61,965 nt of DNA from NCBI GenBank assembly GCA_019637115.1, contig JAHBWH010000028.1:1-61965 (forward strand), given 5' to 3'. Below, piece after piece: positions 24,971 through 38,220 of this stretch (its first letter is position 1; every line of letters starts with the position of its first letter). The notes beneath the pieces were generated by a model that saw nothing but the letters and a program-made list of their open reading frames with translations, searched no databases and was not told the DNA's origin. Origin of the DNA: Myxococcales bacterium. Its GTDB lineage: Bacteria > Myxococcota_A > Polyangia > Polyangiales > Houyiibacteriaceae. The position numbers and the translations under genes are program-made.

Positions 24971-25360
24971 TCAGAGCGAGTCGGCGCGTAGCTCGAGAGG
25001 CTCGCCGTCGCCCCCAGTGCACGTGCAGGCGACGAAGCGGGTCTGCGGGTCCCGATCGAGAGAAGGGCCGATGCGCCCCTCTGCGTAGCCCTCCGCACCG
25101 CAGCGCTCGACGCAGCGATCGGCCCGCGCCGCGTCCATCGAGGTGACGCCCGCGAAGCTGGTGCACATGCCGAGACCGAGGCAGCCCAGGGCGATCCACG
25201 TGATCACGCGGCGGCCCCCGCCGCGCTCGCCGCGGAAGAGCTGTCCGAGCACCGTGAGCTGACGCGATTTGGCGGCGCCACCGCTGCCGAAGAGCACCCC
25301 CATGAAGGTCAGTCCGCCGAGGAAGAAGAGCGCGAGGCCGACGACGAGGATGGGTGACAC
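24971..25360 (-). CDS. Small membrane protein with Cys-rich C-terminus
   Basis: Hypothetical protein of 129 aa with a GTG start. Two hydrophobic helices are visible: VSPILVVGLALFFLGGLTFMGVLF (1-24) and VITWIALGCLGLGMCTSFAGV (about 52-72). The C-terminal 55 residues carry CVERCG and ACTCTGG, which could form disulfides outside the membrane. The frame upstream of 25360 overlaps the start of the divergent galT-like gene and is not protein-like. No family was recognised. Confidence 0.65.
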   Translation of the reverse strand: MSPILVVGLALFFLGGLTFMGVLFGSGGAAKSRQLTVLGQLFRGERGGGRRVITWIALGCLGLGMCTSFAGVTSMDAARADRCVERCGAEGYAEGRIGPSLDRDPQTRFVACTCTGGDGEPLELRADSL

Positions 25361-25437
25361 GGGCCGACGATACCCGAGGTTGTCGTCGGCTTCACGAACC
25401 GCTCGACCCCTCGCACCGAGGTGGCATCGTCCGCCCC

Positions 25438-26559
25438 GTGAGCTCGCCGACCTACCGGCTCGATCGTGTGACCGACACGTGGCGCCTCGTGGCCCCCACG
25501 CGAGCGAACGTGCCCATGCCGCTCGGCGCGCACGAGGACGAGCTCCCCGTCCCCCGCACGCGTTGCCCCTTCTGCCCCGGCCACGAGGCCGACGCGGAGC
25601 CCGAGGTCGCGTCGTGGCCGACGGGGGCGCCGTGGCAGGTGCGCGTCGTGCGCAACCGATACCCGCTCGTCGCCCCGCCGGGGGACGCGGGCGTGCCGCG
25701 GGACGCAACACCCGCACCGACCGACGAACACGCCGACGAACACGCCGACGAACACGCCGACGAACACGCCGACGAACACGCCGACGAACACGCCGACGAA
25801 CACGCCGACGAACACGCCGACGAACACGCCGACGAACGCGCCGTCGAACGCGCCGACGAACGCGCCGTCTTCGGCGCGCACGAGGTCGTGATCGAAGGCC
25901 GCGCGCACGAGGGCGACGTGCCCACCTTCGAGCCCAAGCTCTGGCGCGCCGTCTTCCGCACCTTCCGCGACCGCGTCGCCGCGCACGAGGCGGCCGGCGC
26001 CGCGGCGGTGCTCGTGTTCCGCAACCGCGGGCGGCGCGCTGGGAGCAGTCAGCCGCACCCCCATGCGCAGATCGTCGCGTCGAGCGTCGTGCCGAGCGCG
26101 ATCGCCCAACGTGCCGCGCTCGCGCGCAAGCACTTCGAGCGCGAAGGCCGTGCCCTCCTCGACGACGAGCGCGAGCGCGCCCGCGCAGGCGGCCGGCTCG
26201 TCGCCGAAGACGACGCCACGACGACGTTCTGCCCCTTCGCGCCCTCAGCGCCCTTCGAGACGTGGGTCATGCCACGCGCGCCGACGCCCGCGTCGTGCCT
26301 GGATGACGCGAGCGCCGACGCGTTCGCGGACGCACTCCAACGCGCAGCGTCGCGTGTGCTCGTCGCGAGCGGACGCCGCGCTTGGAACCTCATCCTCCAC
26401 CTGCCGCCGTGCGCCGAGCGCGACGCCCCTGCGTCGCGCTGGTATGCCTCGATCCTCCCACGCACGGGGCCTGGTGCGGGCTTCGAGCTCTCGAGCGGCA
26501 CCACCGTCGTCAGCATCGCTCCCGAGCAGGCCGCCGCTGCGCTGCGCGCGTCGACGTGA
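25438..26559 (+). CDS. galT: Galactose-1-phosphate uridylyltransferase-like protein with DEHA repeat insertion
   Basis: HIT-superfamily nucleotidyl transferase (373 aa, GTG start). The zinc-site motif RCPFCPGHE is near residue 42, followed by VRNRYPLVAP. The catalytic H-P-H-A-Q lies in SQPHPHAQIVAS near residue 205. The second domain includes CPFAPSAPFETWVMP and WNLILHLPP. GalT transfers UMP between UDP-glucose and galactose-1-phosphate, but standalone relatives can use other hexose phosphates, and no gal genes are nearby. Residues about 96-143 are an insertion of nine DEHA units followed by DERAVERADERAV, encoded by a 12-base tandem repeat. The flanking enzyme core is intact, so the loop appears to have expanded in frame. 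Confidence 0.8.
   Translation: MSSPTYRLDRVTDTWRLVAPTRANVPMPLGAHEDELPVPRTRCPFCPGHEADAEPEVASWPTGAPWQVRVVRNRYPLVAPPGDAGVPRDATPAPTDEHADEHADEHADEHADEHADEHADEHADEHADEHADERAVERADERAVFGAHEVVIEGRAHEGDVPTFEPKLWRAVFRTFRDRVAAHEAAGAAAVLVFRNRGRRAGSSQPHPHAQIVASSVVPSAIAQRAALARKHFEREGRALLDDERERARAGGRLVAEDDATTTFCPFAPSAPFETWVMPRAPTPASCLDDASADAFADALQRAASRVLVASGRRAWNLILHLPPCAERDAPASRWYASILPRTGPGAGFELSSGTTVVSIAPEQAAAALRAST
25723..25866 (+). repeat. 12-bp tandem repeat inside the galT-like gene
   Basis: Twelve consecutive 12-base units. The first nine are GACGAACACGCC or nearly so, and the last three are GACGAACGCGCC variants. They encode DEHA/DERA repeats and keep the reading frame. The location corresponds to a surface loop before GAHEVVIEG. 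Confidence 0.92.
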
Positions 26560-27352: not shown

Positions 27353-27826
27353 GGATCCACGGTACGGATGCGAGGATCCACGGTACGGATGCGAGGATCC
27401 ACAGCTACGGATGCGAGGATCCACCAATCTTTCGGCGGCTGCCAATCCGAGGGTCCACGGTACGGATGCGAGGATCCACCAATCTTTCGGCGGGATCCGG
27501 TACGGATGCGAGGATCCACCAATCTTTCGGCGGCTGCCGAGGATCCACCAATCTTTCGGCGGCTGCCAATCCGGTGCCCGCGAGGATCCACCAATCTTTT
27601 GGCGCCTGCGGGATCCAGAGCCGCCCGCGAGGATCCAACCGGTGCCCGCGAGGATCCAACCGGTGCCCGCGAGGATCCGCCAATCTTTCGGCGCCCCGGA
27701 TCCAGAGCCGCCCGCGAGGATCCACCCGCCGCTAGATGCCACCCGCCGCTAGCCGATGGTGGCCGATGGTGCCCGCGAGGATCTGGCCGATGGTGCCCGC
27801 GAGGATCCACCAATCTTTCGGGCGGC
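27353..27826 (+). repeat. REP-like repeat array A (downstream of the RAYT gene)
   Basis: Seven copies of CCACCAATCTTTCGG (two with one or two base changes), most preceded by GAGGATCC, are mixed with GGTACGGATGCGAGGATCC and GGTGCCCGCGAGGATCC units. The last copy (about 27800-27826) lies 107 bases past the RAYT stop codon. The arrays keep several frames open without protein-like content. The rest of 27201-27932 has no gene. Confidence 0.85.
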
Positions 27827-27932
27827 CCCGACGGGTTGCCCGGTGGACGACAGCCCTGTTTCGCCAACGCCCGGCGCATGGCTGCGCGGCCCCGACGGGA
27901 GCCGACGGCGCTTGGGCACGCGGCGTCGACGT

Positions 27933-28991
27933 CTACGCGGCGACGGCCCCGCCGGGGGCGTACATCCCCTCGGGCCACTGCGCGGGCTCGCCGCGCGCGA
28001 AGCGGGCGCGTGCCTCGTCGTACGCCTCGTAGCGTAGGAGCGTCGCGCGGCGATGCGCGGCGATCTGGTCACGCGTGCCGAACGCGTAGGGGCGTGGACT
28101 CCGCTTGGGTTGCCTTGGGCGCTGGTGGACGTCGGCGTCCAAGACGCCGACCACGCCGAGGCAATGCGGCGTTGCCGGCGTATCACACCAGGCCTTCAAG
28201 GTCGCGAAGTACGTGTGGGTGGCGACCGACTCCATCCCGGGCAGCTGGCTGAGCATCAGCCGGTGTGTCCGCCAGAAGGCAGCGCGGTCGGGTGGTCGCT
28301 TCGCTTGCTGCCAGGCGGTGCGGTCGAAGAAGGTCGTCGTCAGCTCGTCGTCGTCGCACATCCCCGCGACGGCGATGAACCCTGGCCACTCCTCGAAGCC
28401 GCGGACGAGCCCCGCCTTCTTCGGGTTCTCGAGCACATACCGGACACGCGCCGCCGCCGCGTCCTCATCGAGGATCGGCTGCGCGTCGTAGCGCCGGGGA
28501 AAGACGGGGCCCGTGCGCCCGAGGAGGAGGTTCAGGGACTGCGCGACTCGCGCCAGGAAGTAGCTCATGAACGCGGCGAGGTTCTTGCCGCGCGCCCGGA
28601 TGACGAGATGGATGTGGTTGCTCATCACGACGACCGCGAAGATCTCCACCGCCGGACGCCCCTCCTTCGCGCAGCGTGCCTGAGCCCGCGCGAGCGCCGA
28701 GCTCACGAGGTCGGCCGCCAGCTTCTCGGCCTCGTCGACCGTGAGCTGCATCTGACCCGGCGGTCGCCGCGCGTTGGCGCGTTCAACCAACCGCGCGAGC
28801 TTCTTGCGGAGCCCCGCGCGCTTGGCCTCGACTGCCCGCCGCGCCTCTCGGTTCGGTGGCCTCAGGCGTGAGCACAACAGCGGATGGAGCCAGAAGCGTT
28901 CTTCCATCGTTCGCGTCGTCACGAAGAAGAGTTGGTCCGAGTCTTCGCATCGCAGGGGTCGCGAGCGACGGGCGGGGCGATCTGAGTCCAT
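27933..28991 (-). CDS. REP-associated tyrosine transposase (RAYT, IS200/IS605-like Y1 HUH family)
   Basis: Single-strand DNA transposase-like protein of 352 aa. The HUH metal motif is H126-I-H128 in VVVMSNHIHLVI. The likely nucleophile is Y185 in RVRYVLENPKKAGLV, the usual Y-x3-NP-x-(R/K)-AGL site of RAYTs. PVFPRRYDAQPIL between them is also typical. An insertion-like basic, helical stretch (about 45-110) and a roughly 130-residue C-terminal extension make it longer than the usual 150-250 aa. The ATG at 28991 was chosen because the frame upstream runs into a REP copy. It is flanked on both sides by inverted REP-like repeats (27800-27826 and 29033-29055), as expected for a RAYT with its cognate REPs. 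Confidence 0.87.
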   Translation of the reverse strand: MDSDRPARRSRPLRCEDSDQLFFVTTRTMEERFWLHPLLCSRLRPPNREARRAVEAKRAGLRKKLARLVERANARRPPGQMQLTVDEAEKLAADLVSSALARAQARCAKEGRPAVEIFAVVVMSNHIHLVIRARGKNLAAFMSYFLARVAQSLNLLLGRTGPVFPRRYDAQPILDEDAAAARVRYVLENPKKAGLVRGFEEWPGFIAVAGMCDDDELTTTFFDRTAWQQAKRPPDRAAFWRTHRLMLSQLPGMESVATHTYFATLKAWCDTPATPHCLGVVGVLDADVHQRPRQPKRSPRPYAFGTRDQIAAHRRATLLRYEAYDEARARFARGEPAQWPEGMYAPGGAVAA

Positions 28992-29032
28992 CCCCCCTCT
29001 TCGCGCGGTCGCGCCCGTGGTTGCTCTTCGGC

Positions 29033-29055
29033 AGTCGGAAAGATTGGTGGATCCT
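29033..29055 (-). repeat. REP-like copy B, 42 bases upstream of the RAYT start
   Basis: The plus strand reads agtcggaaagattggtgg followed by atcct, the reverse complement of the array D unit (GGATCCACCAATCTTTCCGACT). It is inverted with respect to the copies downstream of the RAYT gene and lies in the RAYT leader or promoter. Confidence 0.85.
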
Positions 29056-29059
29056 GATC

Positions 29060-29260
29060 GGTGGTGGAATCTGCGCGCCGCTCGTCTGTGGCGGTGGCGT
29101 AGGCGCCCCCTGCGAACCAGGGACCTGCATCGATGACCTCCTCCGCCACGAAGAGAAAGACCGCTGTGAGCCACGCGGCGAGCCCTGCGACGACGTCAGC
29201 CCCACCTGCGCCGGTGAGACCTACTGCGCGGGCACCACCCGAACCTGCCAGAGCCGTTAG
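29060..29260 (+). pseudogene. Possible remnant of a Cys-rich secreted protein
   Basis: A frame just after REP copy B reads GGVGAPCEPGTCIDDLL, then CEPRGEPCDDVSPTCAG and YCAGTTRTCQSR before a stop. The regular Cys spacing resembles secreted Cys-rich proteins and the next gene is also Cys-rich. No start codon or signal peptide lies in frame downstream of the repeat, so the 5' end seems to be lost or was displaced by the repeat. This is tentative. The rest of 28992-29367 shows nothing else. Confidence 0.3.
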
Positions 29261-29367
29261 CACGTGAAGATTTCGAGGAGGATCGGCCGCGTACAGAGAT
29301 CCCCCGCGGATTGCGCTTGGGCACTCGCCGCGATACCAACCCCTTCGTGCGTAGCACCCGCACCTCG

Positions 29368-30084
29368 ATGCGTGATCGGAGCCTCTCCGCGCTGGCCGGC
29401 TTCGCGGGGGCGTGGCTGGTGGTCGTAGTGCTGGCCTGCGTGACCACACCTTCCGAGGAGGAGTGCTCGGTCGGTTCGGCCGGTTGCTCCTGCACGCCGG
29501 GCGGCGGCTGCGATCCCGGGCTGGCGTGCGCGATGAATATCTGCCGCGCCGAGGGCTGCTCCTGCGACGTGGACGCCACCTGCACCGCGGGCTGCACGTG
29601 CGACGTCGATTGTCCGGGAGACGGCGGGGTGCGAGACGCGGGGGCGCCCCCGAGCGCGACCTGCGAAGGCACCATCGACGGCTGCTGGCAGAGCTGTATC
29701 TCGACCGGGACCAGCACCTCGGCGTGTAGCGGTGCGTGCCCCATCGGGAACGGCTACGGCTGCTATGCAGTCTGCGCCAGCCGCGGCGAGCCGATCTCCA
29801 CTTGCCGAGGAATCTGCGGGATCGCCGGGCCGCTCGCGGAGCTCGGTTGCGCCGAGGCGTGCGCGGCGCGCGGCGAGTCGACGCCGACCTGCAAGGCGAC
29901 CTGCGGGCTCGCCACCGACTGCGGCGAGGTCGGCTGCGCAGGTGTGTGCGTGCAGCGTGGAGACTCGACTTCGGCCTGCAAGAACACCTGCGTCCTGACC
30001 ACCGCGCGCGGCCGCGAGGCCTGCTACTCGGTCTGCGCAAGCCGCGGCGAGCCCGCGGCAAGCTGCGCCGCCATCTGCGGCTGA
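29368..30084 (+). CDS. Lipoprotein with five C-x3-C-x9-C-x3-C repeats
   Basis: Exported Cys-rich protein of 238 aa with lipobox VLAC (lipidated C24). Residues 32-82 hold many Cys in short spacings (GCSCTPGGGC, GCSCDVDATCTAGCTC). From residue 106 five 19-residue modules repeat: 106-124, 132-150, 161-179, 190-208 and 219-237. Each is C-x3-C-x9-C-x3-C, often with A-S/A-R-G-E-P/S after the second Cys. The repeat period is 29 residues for the last four. Even Cys numbers per module suggest internal disulfides, and the protein ends right after the fifth module. I do not recognise the repeat. The start at ATG 29368 gives the signal peptide; an earlier in-frame ATG lacks one. Confidence 0.8.
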   Translation: MRDRSLSALAGFAGAWLVVVVLACVTTPSEEECSVGSAGCSCTPGGGCDPGLACAMNICRAEGCSCDVDATCTAGCTCDVDCPGDGGVRDAGAPPSATCEGTIDGCWQSCISTGTSTSACSGACPIGNGYGCYAVCASRGEPISTCRGICGIAGPLAELGCAEACAARGESTPTCKATCGLATDCGEVGCAGVCVQRGDSTSACKNTCVLTTARGREACYSVCASRGEPAASCAAICG

Positions 30085-30190
30085 GCGATCCGCCGCTGCG
30101 TCCCTCGCGTTGGACCCCCCTCGGAAGCTGCTCGAGCCTGGGCACCTCGCCGTACACCCCGCGACGGATCCTCCCGGCCGGATGGGTGGC

Positions 30191-30363
30191 GATCCACCAA
30201 TCCGAAAGATTGGTGGATCCTCCCCCTCGGCTCCGGCGGTGGATCCTCCCGGCCGGATGGGTGGCGATCCACCAATCCGAAAGATTGGTGGATCCTCCCC
30301 CTCGTCAGCGATCCAGATCCTCCCCCTCGTCAGCGATCCACCAATCCGAAAGATTGGTGGATC
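30191..30363. repeat. REP-like locus C: three identical perfect hairpins
   Basis: At 30191-30219, 30266-30294 and 30335-30363 the arms GATCCACCAATC and GATTGGTGGATC enclose a CGAAA loop. The right half of each hairpin is the unit found singly in arrays A, B and D. CCTCCC(GGCCGG/GGTGGGG) and CCCCTCG(TCAG) spacers repeat between them. The locus fills the gap between the Cys-rich lipoprotein and the DUF2126 gene (30085-30474), which holds no gene. Confidence 0.92.
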
Positions 30364-30474
30364 CTCCCGGTGGGGCCAGGATCCTCCCGGTGGGGCCAGA
30401 TCCTCATGACCGCGTCGAGAGGTGCGCCGTCGGATTGACCGACCGCGCCGCGGGGCTGGTAGGCTCCGCGGCGA

Positions 30475-32679
30475 ATGGCCCCCACGGACGACGAGGCTCT
30501 CCTCCGCGCACACGACACGAAGCTCCGCGCCGCCAACCTCGAGCTCTGGCTTGGCGCCGAGCCGACGTTCACGAACGCCACGTCGAGCGAGGCCGAGTGG
30601 ATCGGCGGCGCGCTCGGACCGACCAAGCTCGCGAGGGCCGAGGCGCTCTGGGCGCGCCTCCACCGGCCCGGCGACCTCACGCTGCGCACCCTTGGCCGCC
30701 AGTACCCCGGCGAGGACGCCCCGCGCTTCTCGCTCGGGCTCTACGGCCTCCGCGAGGTCGCGGCGGCGAGCGCGCGGGGGCGGGTTCCCAGCCCGCTCTG
30801 GCGCGGACCCCTCGACCCCGCAATGAGCGCCGACGCCGCGTCGAACGAGCCAGAGTCCGAGGGTGCGTCCGCGGGCGCTCCCGAGGGTGCGTCCGATGGC
30901 GCGCCCGAGCGCGCGCCCGAGCGCGCGCCCGAGCGCGCACATGCGCTCGCGCGCGCCCTCCGGGACGTGCTGGCGACGGCGCTCGACGGCGAAGCGCTCG
31001 ACCTCCTCGGCGACCGCTTCCCCTACCGCGTCGTCGTCGGCGGCGCGGCGGACGATCCGCGCTGCCGTCGTCCCCCGCTCGACGGCCAGGCGATCCCCGA
31101 GGAGGGCCTCGTCGACCCGCTCTCCGCCGAGGGCGCCCGCCTCTTCTGCGTCGGCGTCGAGCACGGCGCGCCCTCGCTCGAGCTACCAGCCTTCGACGAC
31201 GTCGATCTCTTCCTGGCGTTCCTCGGTGTCCTCGAGGCGGCGTGCGCGAAGGCGGAGGTCGGCGCGCTCGTCCTCCGCGGGCACCCTCCTCCGGTCGACG
31301 CCCGCGTCCGCTTCACGACGCTCACCCCCGACCCAGGCGTGGTCGAGGTGAACATGGCGCCCTGTCGCGACCTCACCGAGCTCGAGCGAGACATGCGCGC
31401 CATCCACGACGCGGCGCACGCGGTCGGCCTCTCGCCCGAGCGGCGTCACTTCAACGGCGAGGTCACCGACAGCGGCGGCGGCGGCCACCTCACCTTCGGC
31501 GCTAGCACCCCGGCGCGCAGCCCCTTCTTCCGGCACCCCGCGCTGCTCCCGCGCCTGCTCGCCTACCTCAACCAACACCCCTCGCTGAGCTACTTCTTCG
31601 GCGGCCACGCGGCGGGCAGCGCAGGCCAGGCGCCGCGCAGCGACGAGAGCACCCCCGAGCTCTTCGGCGAGCTCGACCTCGCGCTCGACCGGCTCGTCCG
31701 CAAGGCACACGCCCCGCTCGAGACCGACGCCGAGCGCGAGCACCTCTGGGCGGAGCTCGCCCCCTTCCTCGCCGACCGTTTCGGCAACACCCACCGCAGC
31801 GAGGTGAACGTCGAGAAGCTCTGGAACCCTTGGTTGCCCGGTCGCGGCAAGCTCGGGCTGATCGAGCTGCGCGCGCTGCGGCAGGCACCGAGCGCGCGAC
31901 ACGCGGTGGCGCGCGCCGCCCTCTTCCGGTGCCTCCTCGCGCGGCTCGCGACGCACGAGCTCCCGGTCGCGCTGCGGAGCTGGGGCGCGACGCTTCACGA
32001 TCGCTTCGCCCTGCCCTACTACCTCGAGGCCGATCTCCGCGAGGTCCTCGGCGACCTCGCGCGCGCGGGCTTCGCGTTGCCAGCCCCCTTCGAGGCCGAG
32101 CTCTTCGACGACCGCCACCGCGTCCTCGGCCAAGTCGACCTGGGCGACCCCGACGCGCCCGTCACGCTCACGGTGCGCCGCGCCCTCGAGCACTGGCCGC
32201 TCGTCGGCGACCTCTCGAAGCAGGCCGGCACCTCTCGCCTCGTCGACGCCTCCACGCAGCGCCTCGAGCTCCGGGTCGAGGGCCCGAGCGAGCGCGTCGG
32301 CCGCGTGCGGCTCGGCGTGCGAGACGGCGACGCGACTGTCGCGCTGCCCGCCGTGCTCGTGGAGGACGGCGCCCACGCCCGCGCCGTCGTGGGCATCCGC
32401 TACCGCGCCTTCATCCCTTCGGTCGGCCTCCATCCGGGGCTGGCGGCGCGCGACCCCCTCGCGCTCGTCATCGCGACCCACGCGCAGAGCTACGCGCTGA
32501 CGATCCACTCGTGGATCCCCGGCGGCGGCGTCTACGCAGGTTTGCCCGCGGACGACGACGACGCCGCCGCGCGCCGCATCGAGCGCTTCGTGCTGACGCT
32601 GCTCGACGCCGCGCCGACGTTCACCCCCGCGCCGCGCGGCGCCGCGACACGGCACACGCTCGATACGCGCCGACTCTGA
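30475..32679 (+). CDS. Stand-alone DUF2126 protein, paralogue of the C-terminal part of the 16502-19852 protein
   Basis: Protein of 734 aa that begins directly with the DUF2126 opening (LWLGAEPTFTN, GALGPTKLA, LGRQYPGEDAPRFS) and lacks the transglutaminase domain. Conserved landmarks match the larger protein: TTLTPDPGVVEVNM, TDSGGGGHLTFG, GNTHRSEVNVEKLW and LIELRALRQAP. Residues about 125-160 form a Gly/Ala/Pro/Glu repeat (PERAPERAPERA), a linker the paralogue lacks, in place of the longer middle region. There is no signal peptide. The family's biochemical activity is not established. An amidoligase-type role has been suggested on structural-similarity and neighbourhood grounds, which I cannot check here. 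Confidence 0.87.
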   Translation: MAPTDDEALLRAHDTKLRAANLELWLGAEPTFTNATSSEAEWIGGALGPTKLARAEALWARLHRPGDLTLRTLGRQYPGEDAPRFSLGLYGLREVAAASARGRVPSPLWRGPLDPAMSADAASNEPESEGASAGAPEGASDGAPERAPERAPERAHALARALRDVLATALDGEALDLLGDRFPYRVVVGGAADDPRCRRPPLDGQAIPEEGLVDPLSAEGARLFCVGVEHGAPSLELPAFDDVDLFLAFLGVLEAACAKAEVGALVLRGHPPPVDARVRFTTLTPDPGVVEVNMAPCRDLTELERDMRAIHDAAHAVGLSPERRHFNGEVTDSGGGGHLTFGASTPARSPFFRHPALLPRLLAYLNQHPSLSYFFGGHAAGSAGQAPRSDESTPELFGELDLALDRLVRKAHAPLETDAEREHLWAELAPFLADRFGNTHRSEVNVEKLWNPWLPGRGKLGLIELRALRQAPSARHAVARAALFRCLLARLATHELPVALRSWGATLHDRFALPYYLEADLREVLGDLARAGFALPAPFEAELFDDRHRVLGQVDLGDPDAPVTLTVRRALEHWPLVGDLSKQAGTSRLVDASTQRLELRVEGPSERVGRVRLGVRDGDATVALPAVLVEDGAHARAVVGIRYRAFIPSVGLHPGLAARDPLALVIATHAQSYALTIHSWIPGGGVYAGLPADDDDAAARRIERFVLTLLDAAPTFTPAPRGAATRHTLDTRRL

Positions 32680-32848
32680 CGGTGGCTTCGCCGCCGCCCT
32701 CGGGCCGGGTGGGCACCTCGTCGCGCTCGACGAGGTGCGCTGGCTCGGAGGGGGACTGGACCCCGAGACGCTCGACGACCCGAGCTGGACCTTCGAAGGC
32801 CTGCCACGCCCGAGACACAACCGACGCCGAACCGTGTCCGCTCGATGA
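32678..32848 (+). other. Short protein-like reading frame, possible gene remnant
   Basis: Directly after the DUF2126 stop, another frame reads GPGGHLVALDEVRWLGG followed by LDPETLDDPSWTFEGLP and stops at 32846-32848. The composition is protein-like, but there is no start codon or ribosome-binding site. It may be the end of a lost gene. Nothing else is visible up to 32889. Confidence 0.2.
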
Positions 32849-32889
32849 TTCGCAGCGCGCCGAAGCGCCAAGGGGAAGCTGACGTCGCC

Positions 32890-33756
32890 TCACTCGTACG
32901 AGCGTGGCCCGACCCCGAGGGCCGAGAGCGTGTTCGCGATCTCGGTGGCTCGACCCTTCTCGAGCGCGCCCGTCTCGCCGAGCCAGCGGTAGTAGGCCCC
33001 GACGGTGAGGAAGAGGTCCTGGTTGGTCTCGTCCAACCCCGCCCCATCCGACATCTCGAGCACGTCCGCGATGAACTGCGCTGGGTCGAGCGAGCCCACG
33101 GGCGGCTCCTTGCCTGGCCCGAGCTGCATCTCGAGGTGGGCCCGAAGGACACGCAACACGCCCTCCGCGCCGGCCTGGCGGACGGGATGCCCGAGCGTCC
33201 CCGCGAAGTCACGCACGGCGGTCTGCATCGCCCACTCGCTGAGACAGGTCTCGGGACAGCACCGCGGGTTCTCGACGTGTTGAAAGCTCGAGCGGCGCGC
33301 GGTGTCCAGCGCAGCGAGGAGGACGTCGCGTTGCCAAGTACAGATCTCGCCGGCGCGGTGGAGCCAGACCACGAACCGCTCGATCAGGCGATGCGTCCGC
33401 GCCGGGCCGAAACCACGCACGCCGGACGTGTAGATGCGCGTGCTGGCCAGGCGGAGCCAGGAGCCACCGAGGAAGTCCGCCCAGCTTCGCGCGCCGCTGA
33501 GGACGATCGCGAGCACCTGGACGTCGACGGGCTTGGCCGAGGTCTCCCGCGCGAAAGCTTCGGCGACGTCGACCCAGCTCTCCCACTCGGAGACGGCTCG
33601 GCGGGGCCGACCCGGCGTCGGCTGTGGCGCGACGGGCGCGGCGCGCGCTCGGCGCGGACGCTTCGTCTCCTCGCTCGAACCCGAGGTCGCGTCGCGAGCT
33701 TTTCGAGGGTTGGTGCGTTTCATGGCCTGGGTCCCGACGGCGTGTCGTTGCGTCAT
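32890..33756 (-). CDS. Hypothetical protein
   Basis: Protein of 288 aa without a recognised domain. The first 75 residues are basic and Pro/Ala-rich (KRPRRARAAPVAPQPTPGRPRR), probably disordered. The rest looks helical and globular (WESWVDVAEAFARETS to SALGVGPRSYE), with a CCPETC cluster near residue 190 that might bind metal. There is no signal peptide or membrane segment. ATG at 33756 is preceded by GAAGGG at good spacing. An alternative ATG at 33723 would remove 11 residues, and longer frames read as non-protein. It is transcribed toward the DUF2126 gene and away from nothing obvious. Confidence 0.6.
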   Translation of the reverse strand: MTQRHAVGTQAMKRTNPRKARDATSGSSEETKRPRRARAAPVAPQPTPGRPRRAVSEWESWVDVAEAFARETSAKPVDVQVLAIVLSGARSWADFLGGSWLRLASTRIYTSGVRGFGPARTHRLIERFVVWLHRAGEICTWQRDVLLAALDTARRSSFQHVENPRCCPETCLSEWAMQTAVRDFAGTLGHPVRQAGAEGVLRVLRAHLEMQLGPGKEPPVGSLDPAQFIADVLEMSDGAGLDETNQDLFLTVGAYYRWLGETGALEKGRATEIANTLSALGVGPRSYE

Positions 33757-33933
33757 GGTGCCCTTCTCGGAGCCAACTTGCAGCAGTTGCGCTCCATCGC
33801 TGGGCGTCGGGTGCCCAGGCAGTCGTGCCGGCCGCGGCCCCGCCCTCCATGGCCCTGCCTCCGGGACCCGCCGTGGTGAGCCGCCGCCATGACGGCCCGC
33901 CATGCCCACCGCGGTCACGCCCGCGCGCCCCCG

Positions 33934-35277
33934 TCAATCGATGAGACGCGCCTGCCGCATCAGCTCGCGGAAGCTCGGGCGCGAGCCCGTGAGCAGGAGT
34001 CCCACGCGAAAGAGCCGCGCGCCGAGCCGGATGGCCACCCACGTGCTCACGATGAGCATCCCGATGGCGCCGAAGATCTCGGCGACGCTGATGCCCTCGG
34101 GCGCGATCGACATTCGGACGATGACCGTGAGCGGCGCGCTGAAGGGGATCCACGTCAGCAGCTTGCCGATGCTGCCGTGAGGCTCCTCGAGCAGGATGAT
34201 CATCATCATCAGCGGCAGCACCGCGAGGAGCGCCCACCCGAGCGTGAGCTTCTGGCTCTCGGGGACGCTGCTCCCAAGGGAGCCGGTGCAGAGCATCAGG
34301 CTACCGAAGAAGAGGTAGCCGAGCACGAAGAAGAGCGGCGAGATCGCGATCGCCGACCACGGCACGGGGACGTCGAGCGATGAGGCGAGCGCGGTGGCGG
34401 CGAGGGCCCCGCCGACGACCATGCCCGCCCACACGAAGAACTGCAGTAGGCCCGCCGCGCCGAGGCCGAGCAGCTTGCCCGTGAGCAGCTCGTCGGGATC
34501 GGCGCTCGAGAGCAACACCTCGACGACCTTGCTCTCTTTGTCGAGCGCGATGGTCTGCACGAGGTAGCCGCTCGCGCTGAGGAGGGCCGTCAGGAGCAGC
34601 ACACCGAGCAGGAAGGGGATGCCGGTGCGCACGATGAGCTCGAGCGCGCGGTTCTGGGTGGAGCGGTGGTCCCCCCTCGCCGAGGTGGTGACGCGCTCGA
34701 GGATCATGGGCTCGAGCGCCCGCGCGACGATCGCCTCGTCGACGTTCCCGCGGAGCATGCGGTCGATGAGGAGGCGCTCGAGCACGGGCTCGACGGTCGC
34801 GCTCCGCACGCTGATGACGGGGCCGGTCTCCGACTCGTAGACCGTGACCGCGCCTGTCGCGAGGTAGTCGTCGCCGACCACGTAGACGGCCCCCAACCGG
34901 TCCTCGCGGAGCAGCGCGAGCGCGTCGGCCTCGTCCGCGAAGCGCGTGAAGACGACGGCGTCGAGCGTCATGAAGCGCCGCTCGTCCGCGGTCAGCTCGG
35001 CGGCGAGCACGGCCGCGCGCGCCCTAGAGCCGTCGAGCCCGGCGTAGTCGGTCCAGATGGCCTCGCTGTCGACCAGGCCAGCTCGGTCGACGAGGCCGTA
35101 GACGGTCGTCTGCTCGGCGCGCTCGACGAGGAACTTCCCTTGCAGCGTCAGCATGCCGCCGCTGAGGCCGCTGAAGAAGATCGGCAGGCCGAAGGTGACG
35201 AGCAGGTAGCTCCAGCGCTTCGCGATGTTCGCGAACTCGAAGCGCGCGATCGCGGCGACCTTCGACGGACGGATCAC
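33934..35277 (-). CDS. ABC-2-type (NatB-like) transporter permease
   Basis: Membrane subunit (447 aa) of an ABC exporter. One helix near the N-terminus (WSYLLVTFGLPIFFSGLSGG) is followed by a large soluble loop of about 170 residues, then five or six helices from PFLLGVLLLTALLSASGYLVQ to the C-terminus, the NatB/ABC2_membrane_3 layout. ALDKESKVVEVLLSSADPDELLTGKLLG after the second helix is the conserved cytoplasmic stretch of this family. The GTG start overlaps the ATPase stop (GTGA), so the pair is translationally coupled. NatAB exports sodium in Bacillus; the substrate here is unknown. Confidence 0.9.
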   Translation of the reverse strand: MIRPSKVAAIARFEFANIAKRWSYLLVTFGLPIFFSGLSGGMLTLQGKFLVERAEQTTVYGLVDRAGLVDSEAIWTDYAGLDGSRARAAVLAAELTADERRFMTLDAVVFTRFADEADALALLREDRLGAVYVVGDDYLATGAVTVYESETGPVISVRSATVEPVLERLLIDRMLRGNVDEAIVARALEPMILERVTTSARGDHRSTQNRALELIVRTGIPFLLGVLLLTALLSASGYLVQTIALDKESKVVEVLLSSADPDELLTGKLLGLGAAGLLQFFVWAGMVVGGALAATALASSLDVPVPWSAIAISPLFFVLGYLFFGSLMLCTGSLGSSVPESQKLTLGWALLAVLPLMMMIILLEEPHGSIGKLLTWIPFSAPLTVIVRMSIAPEGISVAEIFGAIGMLIVSTWVAIRLGARLFRVGLLLTGSRPSFRELMRQARLID

Positions 35278-36227
35278 TCCGCGGCCTCCTCGGCGGGCGC
35301 ACTCACCTCGTGCCCCGTGCCCCGCACCGCGCGCAAAAAGATCTCCTCCATGGTGGCGAGCACCTCCTCGAAGTGGTGCACGCGCGCGCGGGCGCCGACG
35401 AGCGCGTCGAGCAGCTCGGCCGGCGTGCCGCCGGCCGCGAGGTGCAGCGCGAGCAAGGGGAGCTCGCGGTCGTTCCCGGGCTCCTCCTCGACCACGCGCG
35501 CGACCTGCGGGAGCTCTGGGAGGTCACCCTCGACGCGCACGCGGACGACGGGCGCCGAGCTGCTGCGCCGCACCTCGCGGAGCGTACCGTAGACCACGCG
35601 CTCACCGGCGTGGATGACGGCGACGCGATCACAGAGCTGCTCGACCTGGTTCATCATGTGCGTCGAGAGGATGGTCGCGCGGCCGCTGGCCCGGCGCTCG
35701 CGGATGAGCTGCTTGACCATGTCGACGCCGACGGGGTCGAGACCGCTGAAGGGCTCGTCGAGCACGCAGAGCTCCGGCTCGCTGAGCAGCGCGCCAGCGA
35801 TCTGCACCTTCTGGCTCATGCCCTTCGAGAGCGTCTCGACGTTCCGCTTGGCGACGTGGCCCATGCCGACCTTGTCGAGCCAGCGCTCGGAGGCCCGCCG
35901 CGCGTCCTTGCGACCGAGGCCCTTGAGGCGCGCGAAATACGTCAGCGCGTCGAGCACCTTCACCTTCTTGTAGAGCCCGCGCTCCTCGGGGAGGTAGCTG
36001 ACGCGGTCGAGCCCATCGCGGTGGAGCGGCGCACCGAAGAGGCGCACCTCGCCGGCGTCCGGACGCAAGATGTCGAGCCCGATGCGGATCAGCGTCGTCT
36101 TGCCAGCGCCGTTCGGGCCGAGCAGCCCGAAGACCTCCCCCGGCTGCACCTCGAGCGAGACGTCACGCAACGCGACGGTGCGCCCATAACTCTTGCGCAC
36201 CCCATGGTAAGCGAGGACCGCGGTCAT
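35274..36227 (-). CDS. ABC transporter ATP-binding protein (NatA-like)
   Basis: ATPase partner (317 aa) of the permease encoded next. Walker A is GPNGAGKT (near 40), the signature is LSKGMSQKVQ (near 133), Walker B is LCVLDEPFSGLDP (near 157), and the switch His is in ILSTHMMNQ (near 190). A C-terminal domain of about 90 residues after the ATPase core is typical for NatA-type exporters. MTAVLAYHGVRKSYGR is the expected N-terminus. The longer in-frame start at 36263 adds a non-conserved segment. First gene of the two-gene operon. Confidence 0.92.
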   Translation of the reverse strand: MTAVLAYHGVRKSYGRTVALRDVSLEVQPGEVFGLLGPNGAGKTTLIRIGLDILRPDAGEVRLFGAPLHRDGLDRVSYLPEERGLYKKVKVLDALTYFARLKGLGRKDARRASERWLDKVGMGHVAKRNVETLSKGMSQKVQIAGALLSEPELCVLDEPFSGLDPVGVDMVKQLIRERRASGRATILSTHMMNQVEQLCDRVAVIHAGERVVYGTLREVRRSSSAPVVRVRVEGDLPELPQVARVVEEEPGNDRELPLLALHLAAGGTPAELLDALVGARARVHHFEEVLATMEEIFLRAVRGTGHEVSAPAEEAAE

Positions 36228-36392
36228 CGAGGCTCCGGCCGGCGCACCGAGGTGGTGTAGCACGGACGGGCCGCGACCGTCGCGGCATGCGACGCGCCAA
36301 CCGACCGCGCACTTGGCCGGTCCAAGCTCGGATCCTGCGACGGCGCTGCGGCTCCCGTCGCCGAGCTGCTACCCTCTCCCTCGGGGTGGAAG

Positions 36393-36773
36393 ATGATCGC
36401 ACGAACGACTTGGGTGTGCCTGGTGATCGCGATGCTCGCCGGGCCGGGGTGCTGCAAATGTGGAGAAGAGCCGCCGCCGATCTTCTCGGCGACGAGTGGT
36501 GACGAGGCCGACGACGAGGCCAGCGGCGGCGCCACCGCCCAGCCCGCGCCGGCGCCGCGCGGCGTGACCGAGGGACGCGCGGTCGAGATCGCGATGAACA
36601 CCGCGGTCGAGCAGGGCGTCGACATCGACGGCTTCGACGACATCGTCGTGCACGGGACCTCCGACGGCCGCTCGTGGGAGGTCCAGCTCCGGCGCCCTCG
36701 CATCCTCCGCTACTACGTCATCACGATCGACAAGCAGAGCGGCAGCGCCGCGCTCGAAGAGCGCATGCAATGA
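36393..36773 (+). CDS. Hypothetical small lipoprotein
   Basis: Exported protein of 126 aa with the signal MIARTTWVCLVIAMLAGPGC (lipobox GPGC), then a 35-residue Asp/Ala/Pro linker. The C-terminal part (GVTEGRAVEIAMNTAVEQG to YYVITIDKQSGSAALEERM) resembles one small alpha-beta unit, somewhat like a PepSY domain, which often regulates proteases, but the match is weak. Divergent to the ABC exporter operon. Confidence 0.68.
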   Translation: MIARTTWVCLVIAMLAGPGCCKCGEEPPPIFSATSGDEADDEASGGATAQPAPAPRGVTEGRAVEIAMNTAVEQGVDIDGFDDIVVHGTSDGRSWEVQLRRPRILRYYVITIDKQSGSAALEERMQ

Positions 36774-36807
36774 GCTCTCGGCGCCACGCGGTCTCCCCGC
36801 GGGCGCT

Positions 36808-36987
36808 GGTCCGGAGGCCCGCGCCGCGTTCGTGCATGACGAGCAACGCTGAACGCGCGTGGGCGCCGGTCCCGAGCCCAGCGCCGCGTTCGTGCTCGAT
36901 GAGCAACGTCGAACGCGCATGATCGCCGGTCCCGAGGCCAGCGCCGCGTTCGTGCACGACGAGCAACGTCGAACGCGCGTGCTCGCC
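36808..36987. repeat. 60-bp tandem repeat, three copies
   Basis: Three copies with a 60-base period start at 36808, 36868 and 36928 (GGTCC(G/C)GAG...CGCCGCGTTCGTGC...GAGCAACG(C/T)(T/C)GAACGCGC). A partial fourth copy (CATGCACGACGAGCAGCCGC) follows. The array lies between the lipoprotein and iscA genes (36774-37051). 60 is a multiple of three so frames stay open, but the translation is not protein-like. Confidence 0.88.
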
Positions 36988-37051
36988 GGTCCTTCATGCA
37001 CGACGAGCAGCCGCGCCGCCGTGCACGGCGAGGCGGCACCGGCGGAAGCGG

Positions 37052-37444
37052 TCAGTCGGTCGTGAAGCTCGCGCCGCAGCCGCAATCACCCGTCGCGTTC
37101 GGGTTCTGCCACTTGAAGCCGTAGCCGAGCAGCCGGGTCTCCCAATCGAGCACGCCGCCCTTCAACAGCTCGGCGCTGCGGTCGTCGATGAAGACGCGCA
37201 GGCCACCGAAGTCGAAGACCATGTCGCGCTTCCGCTGCTTCGTGGCGACGTCGTAGACGTAATAATAGCCGCTGCATCCGCCGCCCTTCACCCCGATCCG
37301 GAGGCCGAGGATCAGCTCGGGCGTGTCGGCCTGCGCCTCGACGATGCGCTTCTTGCCCATCTCGACGGCGCGGGGCGTGAGGGTGATGGGTGGCTCGCCC
37401 TGGGAGAGGGTGACGTCTCGGGTGTCCGTGTCGACCTGGGTCAT
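37052..37444 (-). CDS. iscA: IscA/ErpA-type iron-sulfur cluster carrier
   Basis: A-type carrier (130 aa) that receives nascent Fe-S clusters and passes them to apoproteins. The three conserved cysteines are present: C57 in GGCSGYYYV and C121/C123 in GDCGCGASF. ITLTPRAVEMGKKRI marks the domain start and LLKGGVLDWETRLLGYGFKWQNPNA the central part. It is divergent to the cysteine desulfurase at 38221, so sulfur donor and carrier genes face away from a 776-base region packed with repeats. IscA, ErpA and SufA cannot be told apart by sequence alone. Confidence 0.93.
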   Translation of the reverse strand: MTQVDTDTRDVTLSQGEPPITLTPRAVEMGKKRIVEAQADTPELILGLRIGVKGGGCSGYYYVYDVATKQRKRDMVFDFGGLRVFIDDRSAELLKGGVLDWETRLLGYGFKWQNPNATGDCGCGASFTTD

Positions 37445-37597
37445 GCGCGAGAGAGGTTGTAAGGCCGAGATGGCTCGAACGCCAATCTTGCGGAGGGCGA
37501 AGTCCCTGCCCTTGCCCTCGACCCGTGCCCCCTACGCCTGCCTCAACCGGCCAGGAACCCAGGGGGGCAGGGGGATGCGTTGCTGAAGCTCATGACG

Positions 37598-38080
37598 GGA
37601 TCCGCGGGGCGGGATCGGCGAGGATCCACCAGTCTTTCCGACTCCTGCGCGCGGGATCCGCGAGGATCCACCAATCTTTCCGACTCCTGCGCGCGGGATC
37701 CGCGAGGATCCACCAATCTTTCCGACTCCTGCGCGGGATCCGCGGGGCGGGATCGGCGAGGATCCACAGTCTTTCCGACTCGACTCCTGCGGGATCCGCG
37801 AGGATCCACCAATCTTTCCGACTCCTGCCTGGGATCCGCGAGGATCCACCAATCTTTCCGACTCCTGCCCGGGATCCGCGAGGATCCACCAATCTTTCCG
37901 ACTCCTGCCCGGGATCCGCGAGGATCCAATCTTTCCGACTCCTGCGCGCGGGATCCGCGAGGATCCAATCTTTCCGCCGCGAGGATCCACCAATCTTTCC
38001 GACTCCTGCCCGGGATCCGCGAGGATCCACCAATCTTTCCGACTCCTGCGCGGGATCCGCGAGGATCCGCGGGGCGGGGC
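37598..38080 (+). repeat. REP-like repeat array D between iscA and iscS
   Basis: About eleven units of GAGGATCCACCAATCTTTCC followed by GACTCCTGC and (C/G)CGGGATCCGC. Two units lack CACC, one lacks CAC, and two read CAGTC instead of CAATC. Unit length is about 38-42 bases. The whole divergent intergenic region between iscA and iscS is built from this array plus the GGGGCA run that follows. Confidence 0.9.
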
Positions 38081-38114
38081 AGAGGCACTTCCTCCCTTGG
38101 GGATCCGTGCAGCG

Positions 38115-38197
38115 AGGGCAGGGGCAGGGGCAGGGGCAGCGGCAGAGGCAGGGGCAGAGGCAGGGGCAGGGGCAGGGGCAGGGGCAGGGGCAGGGGA
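38115..38197 (+). repeat. GGGGCA hexamer repeat in the iscS leader
   Basis: About fourteen GGGGCA units with occasional AGAGGCA or AGCGGCA variants end 23 bases before the iscS ATG. G-runs of four every six bases on the coding strand form a strong G-quadruplex motif, which would be present in the mRNA leader. The same hexamer occurs upstream of hutU. Confidence 0.88.
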
Positions 38198-38220
38198 CAT
38201 TGTTGCTATCGTTTGTACTG

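Follow-up and report, generated by a model that had tools for sequence, protein, structure and literature searches.

The spreading of repeats by RAYTs is known as far as cleavage and strand transfer in vitro, while the route of dissemination is still a question. TnpA-REP enzymes cut at C|T and one of them also at C|A (PMC8266576); the studied enzyme displayed cleavage at C|T and C|A, and at C|C when its motif was altered (PMC8266576). Cleavage leaves a 3'-OH, which according to the same authors can prime replication in related enzymes and might serve to disseminate REPs (PMC8266576). In other RAYTs a W-Q/E residue pair has been tied to recognition of GTAG (PMC6006769). Long RAYT-like proteins without REPs are known as well, under the designation TIRYT and as subclasses 2.1 and 2.3 (PMC6006769).

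The window considered here, the whole stretch of 61,965 nucleotides, was contig C201 of an 8.88-Mb genome assembled in 434 contigs. It contained a RAYT-type gene and a repeat with core GGATCCACCAATCTTTC. Within the core lies a CC|A site, at the boundary GGATCC / A. The relevant features were the following:

27353 to 27826, plus strand: array A, five exact and two one-mismatch cores, plus incomplete GGATCC units
27923 to 29055, minus strand: segment common to contigs C201 and C35 in a local alignment of both loci, the probable moved unit
27936 to 28991, minus strand: gene for a RAYT-type HUH/tyrosine transposase of 352 aa, stop codon at 27933-27935
29038 to 29054, minus strand: single upstream core, in the gene's orientation, at the left boundary of the shared segment
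30166 to 30402, minus strand: array B, three cores plus incomplete units
37596 to 38106, plus strand: array C, seven exact cores, one one-mismatch core, three indel variants and GGATCCGCGA units

The longest open reading frame begins further upstream, at GTG 29174. The ATG at 28991 is common to the homologues, including the paralogue, and yields the 352 residues numbered here, which is also the numbering of the active-site layout (H-I-H at 126-128 and Y185) recognized in the first-pass annotation. This layout was confirmed: H126, H128, Y185, N189 and P190 were invariant in an alignment of 14 homologues, drawn from this genome and from others, with no loss of the HUH/Tyr residues, and the Y---NP signature (Y185---N189-P190) was present. 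H126, H128 and Y185 were also invariant in a smaller set of six homologues. Profile scores remained below their cut-offs (NCBIfam NF047646, REP-associated tyrosine transposase, 59.8 bits against 80; Pfam Y1_Tnp, 14.6 against 23). The AlphaFold2 model (pLDDT 88.8) displayed its best fold match with 4ER8, the E. coli TnpA-REP with its REP hairpin bound (Z 13.0, rmsd 3.1 over 156 residues), followed by IS200/IS605 transposases (Z 6.8-8.6). This likeness to 4ER8 came from fold comparison only, a sequence search of solved structures having returned no match. Fold matches with Thg1 and parvovirus NS1 (Z 4-6) were taken to indicate a general arrangement in common only. Assignment of the 352-aa protein to the RAYT-type transposases by fold and catalytic residues is well supported.

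The two enlargements initially attributed to this protein were both retrieved. An N-terminal insertion of about 50 residues (roughly 46-95), mostly helical, was displayed by the clade of the window gene and was absent from more distant homologues, and a long C-terminal part was found in all aligned homologues and was confidently modelled. According to our reading of the alignment, the W-Q/E position is occupied by F-P or W-A in this lineage, which fits the lack of GTAG in the repeat. Homologues were present in 28 of 379 genomes of a phylum sample, and the named genomes with the nearest ones were MAGs of Myxococcales/Deltaproteobacteria.

Two distant RAYT-like genes of the same genome were accompanied by arrays of another kind. 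On C20 (L035:2530-3291), a CRISPR-like array was located downstream of such a gene, with a 36-37-nt repeat, GTCTCAATCCCCTGAGCGGGGCTCTGCCGTTTCCGGC, seen in 10 copies at 73-76-nt spacing and with differing spacers. On C414 (L037:2480-3100), GGTTCGCCAGCTTC and CGTCCTTCGGTTCG units formed an irregular array after the gene.

A second full copy of the window gene was encountered on C35 (62136-63191, 84% identical), with three cores upstream and three downstream, and a third copy was a fragment cut by the contig end (C164:1-111), followed by cores within 10 bp. Divergence between the two full copies (dN 0.093 against dS 0.49, dN/dS 0.19) indicated that the protein is maintained under purifying selection. 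The C201 and C35 loci were alike from A-GGATCC, which makes the core one end of the moved segment, to about 10 bp beyond the stop codon; the shared DNA took in no downstream core, and its right boundary displayed no recognizable motif that could mark a second end of the element. The window gene is flanked by cores at 27803-27819 (plus strand, downstream) and 29038-29054 (minus strand, upstream), inverted about the gene as had been noticed initially, and inverted flanking cores were also found at G040, G008 and L181. These could be the ends of a TIRYT-type mobile element, the arrays then being degraded copies of its ends. The protein is long and has a C-terminal extension, as in TIRYT/subclass 2.1 (PMC6006769), and the same-genus genome G001 holds several truncated gene copies. 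However, the cores flanking the C35 copy are direct rather than inverted, the shared DNA ends without a downstream core, and the units of the arrays are locus-specific and not remnants of an element; this explanation appears quite improbable.

In G001, on contigs C9 and C199 (L060, L064), the 5' part of the RAYT gene and its leader were repeated several times as fragments ending at new cores. As these fragments end at core copies, arrays can carry gene pieces too.

With up to three mismatches allowed, GGATCCACCAATCTTTC was matched 19 times in the window, compared with 0.09 expected from shuffles. All 19 matches fell within 27,417-38,039, at four places, and none elsewhere in the window; the array at 37.6-38.1 kb holds three indel variants besides, which raised the count to about 22, the number initially given. 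Pattern searches of the whole genome retrieved 40 core copies with at most one mismatch, on contigs C201, C35, C164, C357, C99 and C25, and these included the cores beside the second RAYT gene and the third fragment. The local clustering initially described thus holds within the window, but roughly half of the copies in the genome sit on the five other contigs. No RAYT match was found on the same contig for the arrays on C357, C99 and C25.

Copies of the core were arranged head-to-tail. Array A lies downstream of the gene and is inverted relative to it; in array B a partial core in inverted orientation comes after each core, giving GGATCCACCAATC-TTTCG-GATTGGTGGATC. Twelve arrays (see below) had GGATCCACCANTCTTTCC in common, and no conserved GTAG/GTGG was present in this segment and its adjoining bases in the twelve. 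Folding of 42 units uncovered a weak hairpin (mean z -0.83); arrays G, H and J displayed it clearly and the other arrays weakly. Compensation by locus-specific hairpins was rejected, own and swapped left flanks folding alike (-3.08 and -2.92). The description as a complete RAYT/REP system can therefore be kept for a RAYT with an apparently cognate repeat, versions of which lie beside homologues in related genomes, but not for a usual REP: the GTAG/GTGG foot is missing, the hairpin is weak, copies run head-to-tail and one array is intragenic.

Other repeats were observed in the same part of the window. GGCAGG-type 6-bp repeats occupied 38117-38208 (plus strand), directly after array C and before a cysteine-desulfurase-like gene. 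Three 60-bp tandem units, 83-88% alike and unrelated to the GGATCC core, were located between two genes at 36804-36992. A long ORF at 25354-26559 (plus strand), possibly encoding a galactose-1-phosphate uridylyltransferase, contained a 12-bp unit (DEHA... in the protein) that was repeated in frame about ten times.

The construction of the arrays was considered by splitting 12 GGATC arrays, nine from this genome and three from G001, at GGATC. The bases just 5' of GGATC repeated inside one array and differed among the 12, as illustrated by ...GATGCGA and ...CCCGCGA (array A), ...GCGA (array C), GAGCGCTGGAA (C99), CCGTTCGAA (G001 C301) and GCGCTCTCGAAA (G001 C341). After GGATC, units either continued through the full core or reverted to local sequence. 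The 123 GGATC anchors comprised 43 with a full core (at least 16 bases), 78 that exited at positions 5-9 and two in between; exits at positions 5, 6, 7, 8 and 9 numbered 13, 42, 9, 5 and 9, together 78 of the 80 incomplete anchors. When only distinct joints were counted, 55 out of 57 exited at positions 5-9, that is within GGATC-GGATCCACC (P 7e-17 against a uniform spread across positions 5-15), a value to be read with the partial dependence of joints of one array and with the bias towards joints after GGATC that anchoring at GGATC brings. The sixth base was C in 45 of these 55 joints, against a composition of 38%, which places most joints after GGATCC. Unanchored ends of exact repeats displayed the same peak, less sharp (42% of right against 28% of left ends in one 5-nt window). 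For 43 of the 78 incomplete units a donor of the rejoined sequence was located, on the upstream side of the joint in 29 cases and on the downstream side in 14, and microhomology at these joints was 0-3 nt. Recent short-range amplification, as initially proposed, fits each array, but overlooks the locus-specific unit, the near-fixed breakpoint and the arrays on other contigs.

The arrays thus preserve a record of a joining step, with a nearly fixed joint at a dinucleotide cut by a studied RAYT. Nicking at CC|A, as we infer it from these joints, suggests that the cut site of the enzyme would also be the place where repeats are copied and grow. In the mechanism proposed here, RAYT would bind the core on single-stranded DNA and nick it at or beside CC|A, the 5' end being held on Tyr185. 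The freed 3'-OH of ...GGATCC would re-anneal a short way upstream through 0-3 nt of microhomology and be extended again, so that local DNA together with GGATCC is added once more in tandem. New loci would be seeded when the core is occasionally transferred, either alone or together with the gene. Read from sequence comparison, the mechanism as a whole (nicking at or near CC|A driving local tandem re-copying, core transfer seeding new loci) is given about an even chance of being correct.

Some incomplete units from arrays H and I (GGATCCGAGCGCTGG, GGATCCGACGTCCGC) equal the exact loss of CACCATTCTTTC. Such units could be scars, namely donor joints left after RAYT cut out a core with its spacer as in IS200/IS605, so that the arrays would record loss as much as gain. 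Rare REPIN excisions were detected by sequencing (PMC3116915) and strand transfer by TnpA-REP has been obtained in vitro (PMC8266576). Most incomplete units, however, rejoin at many different local sites and not at a single right-hand cut site, and extended runs like that of tandem CCATGAGGGGTGCC in L186 require duplication. Excision was accordingly considered improbable as the general explanation.

Homologous genes in related genomes carried cores of their own. Among 56 relatives sampled outside the genus, none carried the exact core, whereas at the equivalent place the genes displayed AAGCTTCCAACACAAATTCC (G040), AAGCTTCCAGGATGAATT (G008) and AGCTTCCAGCACATATT (G011), and motifs beside homologues were AACGTGCCACCGTTTTTGCCC and AACGTTCCACCATTTTTGCCC in G001 and AACCTGCCAGGCCGTTTTCGCCC in L094. 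Cores of relatives further included AAGCTTCCA, AACGTGCCA, AACCTGCCA and GGTGCCA, as well as GGTGCCACCCACC, and in G008 and G001 the motif was found away from the gene too. The GGATCC position was occupied by AAGCTTCC, AACGTGCC, AACCTGCC or GGTGCC in these genomes, and the feature in common was CC|A. The BamHI-like appearance of the core, emphasized in the first-pass annotation, is thus accidental, and restriction of the BamHI type was rejected as the cause of GGATCC. Nearby repeats were enriched at RAYT genes: an 11-mer with at least four nearby copies was found at 13 of 35 RAYT loci and at none of the 13 control loci around prmC (P 0.016 for the copy numbers, Mann-Whitney).

Most joints were located at the matching place in these systems with different recognition sequences, namely AAGCTTC| (G040, G008), AAGCTTCC| (G008), AACCTGCC| (L094), AACGTGCC| and AACGTGCCA| (G001) and GGTGCC| (L186, L165). 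Incomplete units of relatives mostly exited the core around CC|A, the exceptions being L171 and L106 with joints elsewhere. This recurrence bears on passive growth, in which RAYT or an ancestor spread only the core and the arrays grew, enzyme-free, by replication slippage or unequal recombination, with fork stalling at GGATCC or at a weak hairpin fixing the joint. Short microhomology at the joints, hairpins in some units and arrays on contigs without a RAYT match are all in agreement with it, and known REP clusters with flanking DNA can be explained likewise (PMC3116915, PMC3733652). But the joint stays at CC|A though the preceding bases vary (AAGCTT, AACGTG, AACCTG, GGTGCC) and is therefore independent of the GGATCC palindrome, the hairpins of most units are weak, and RAYT genes are enriched for nearby repeats relative to control loci. 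Passive growth is consequently regarded as unlikely, if still worth consideration.

Extended to the relatives, copying from a nick at CC|A would make the Myxococcota RAYT lineage a local repeat-writing enzyme, in which the bases before CC|A changed along with the enzyme between lineages; this broader proposal is tentative and somewhat doubtful. If true, every target locus would grow its own tandem array, even inside a gene. The question of whether the 3'-OH left by a RAYT primes local copying can be reduced to one enzyme and one oligonucleotide.

The array on C357 lies in frame within a PrmC-like methyltransferase ORF of 474 aa (L045:6295-7719), where it is read as ...EERLVDPS... and lengthens the linker between two conserved parts. 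The G001 orthologue (374-aa frame) is devoid of the array; its linker does not align, which leaves the insertion point undefined. Neither genome yielded a close, intact copy when empty sites were sought through the G001 IS66-like genes with a leader copy (C9, C356), and a search for that of array C through the cysteine desulfurase gene gave no match at threshold in 13 relatives. RAYT systems extend beyond GTAG hairpins, and an array can be read in frame in a PrmC-like gene.

Among known systems, E. coli TnpA-REP and the REPtrons are similar in HUH/Tyr fold, Y---NP motif and best structural match (4ER8). As in RAYT/REP systems generally, a repeat family of its own flanks the gene, occurs elsewhere in the genome as well and is particular to the gene lineage. 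The present system differs from them by its protein of 352 aa, which carries an additional N-terminal block and has a long C-terminus, by the lack of GTAG, by the weak hairpin and by head-to-tail, locus-specific units amounting to about 40 copies in some ten places and not hundreds; canonical REPs are extragenic, dispersed and present in high copy number, whereas these copies are confined to six contigs and one array lies inside the PrmC-like ORF. IS200/IS605 TnpA has the HUH/Tyr fold in common, as well as one sharp boundary of the moved segment, but here the motif is Y---NP and not Y---Q, the protein is about twice as long and no subterminal hairpin pair was recognized. TIRYT and the TnpA-Y1 subclasses 2.1 and 2.3 (PMC3733652, PMC6006769) also comprise long proteins with C-terminal extensions, and inverted repeats surround the gene at several loci here; the flanks are not always inverted, however, and the motif builds large dispersed arrays. 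Tandem REP/REPIN clusters (PMC3116915, PMC3733652) likewise consist of repeats reiterated with flanking DNA, some of them beside RAYT genes. While such clusters are known, neither these cores nor a fixed joint within the motif were found described in the literature searched, which covered few subscription papers. The best explanation is that the system belongs to the RAYT family, as a long-protein lineage of Myxococcota with a non-canonical recognition motif, and it is distinguished from tandem REP/REPIN clusters by a single joint inside the motif, the position of which recurs across lineages with other motifs.
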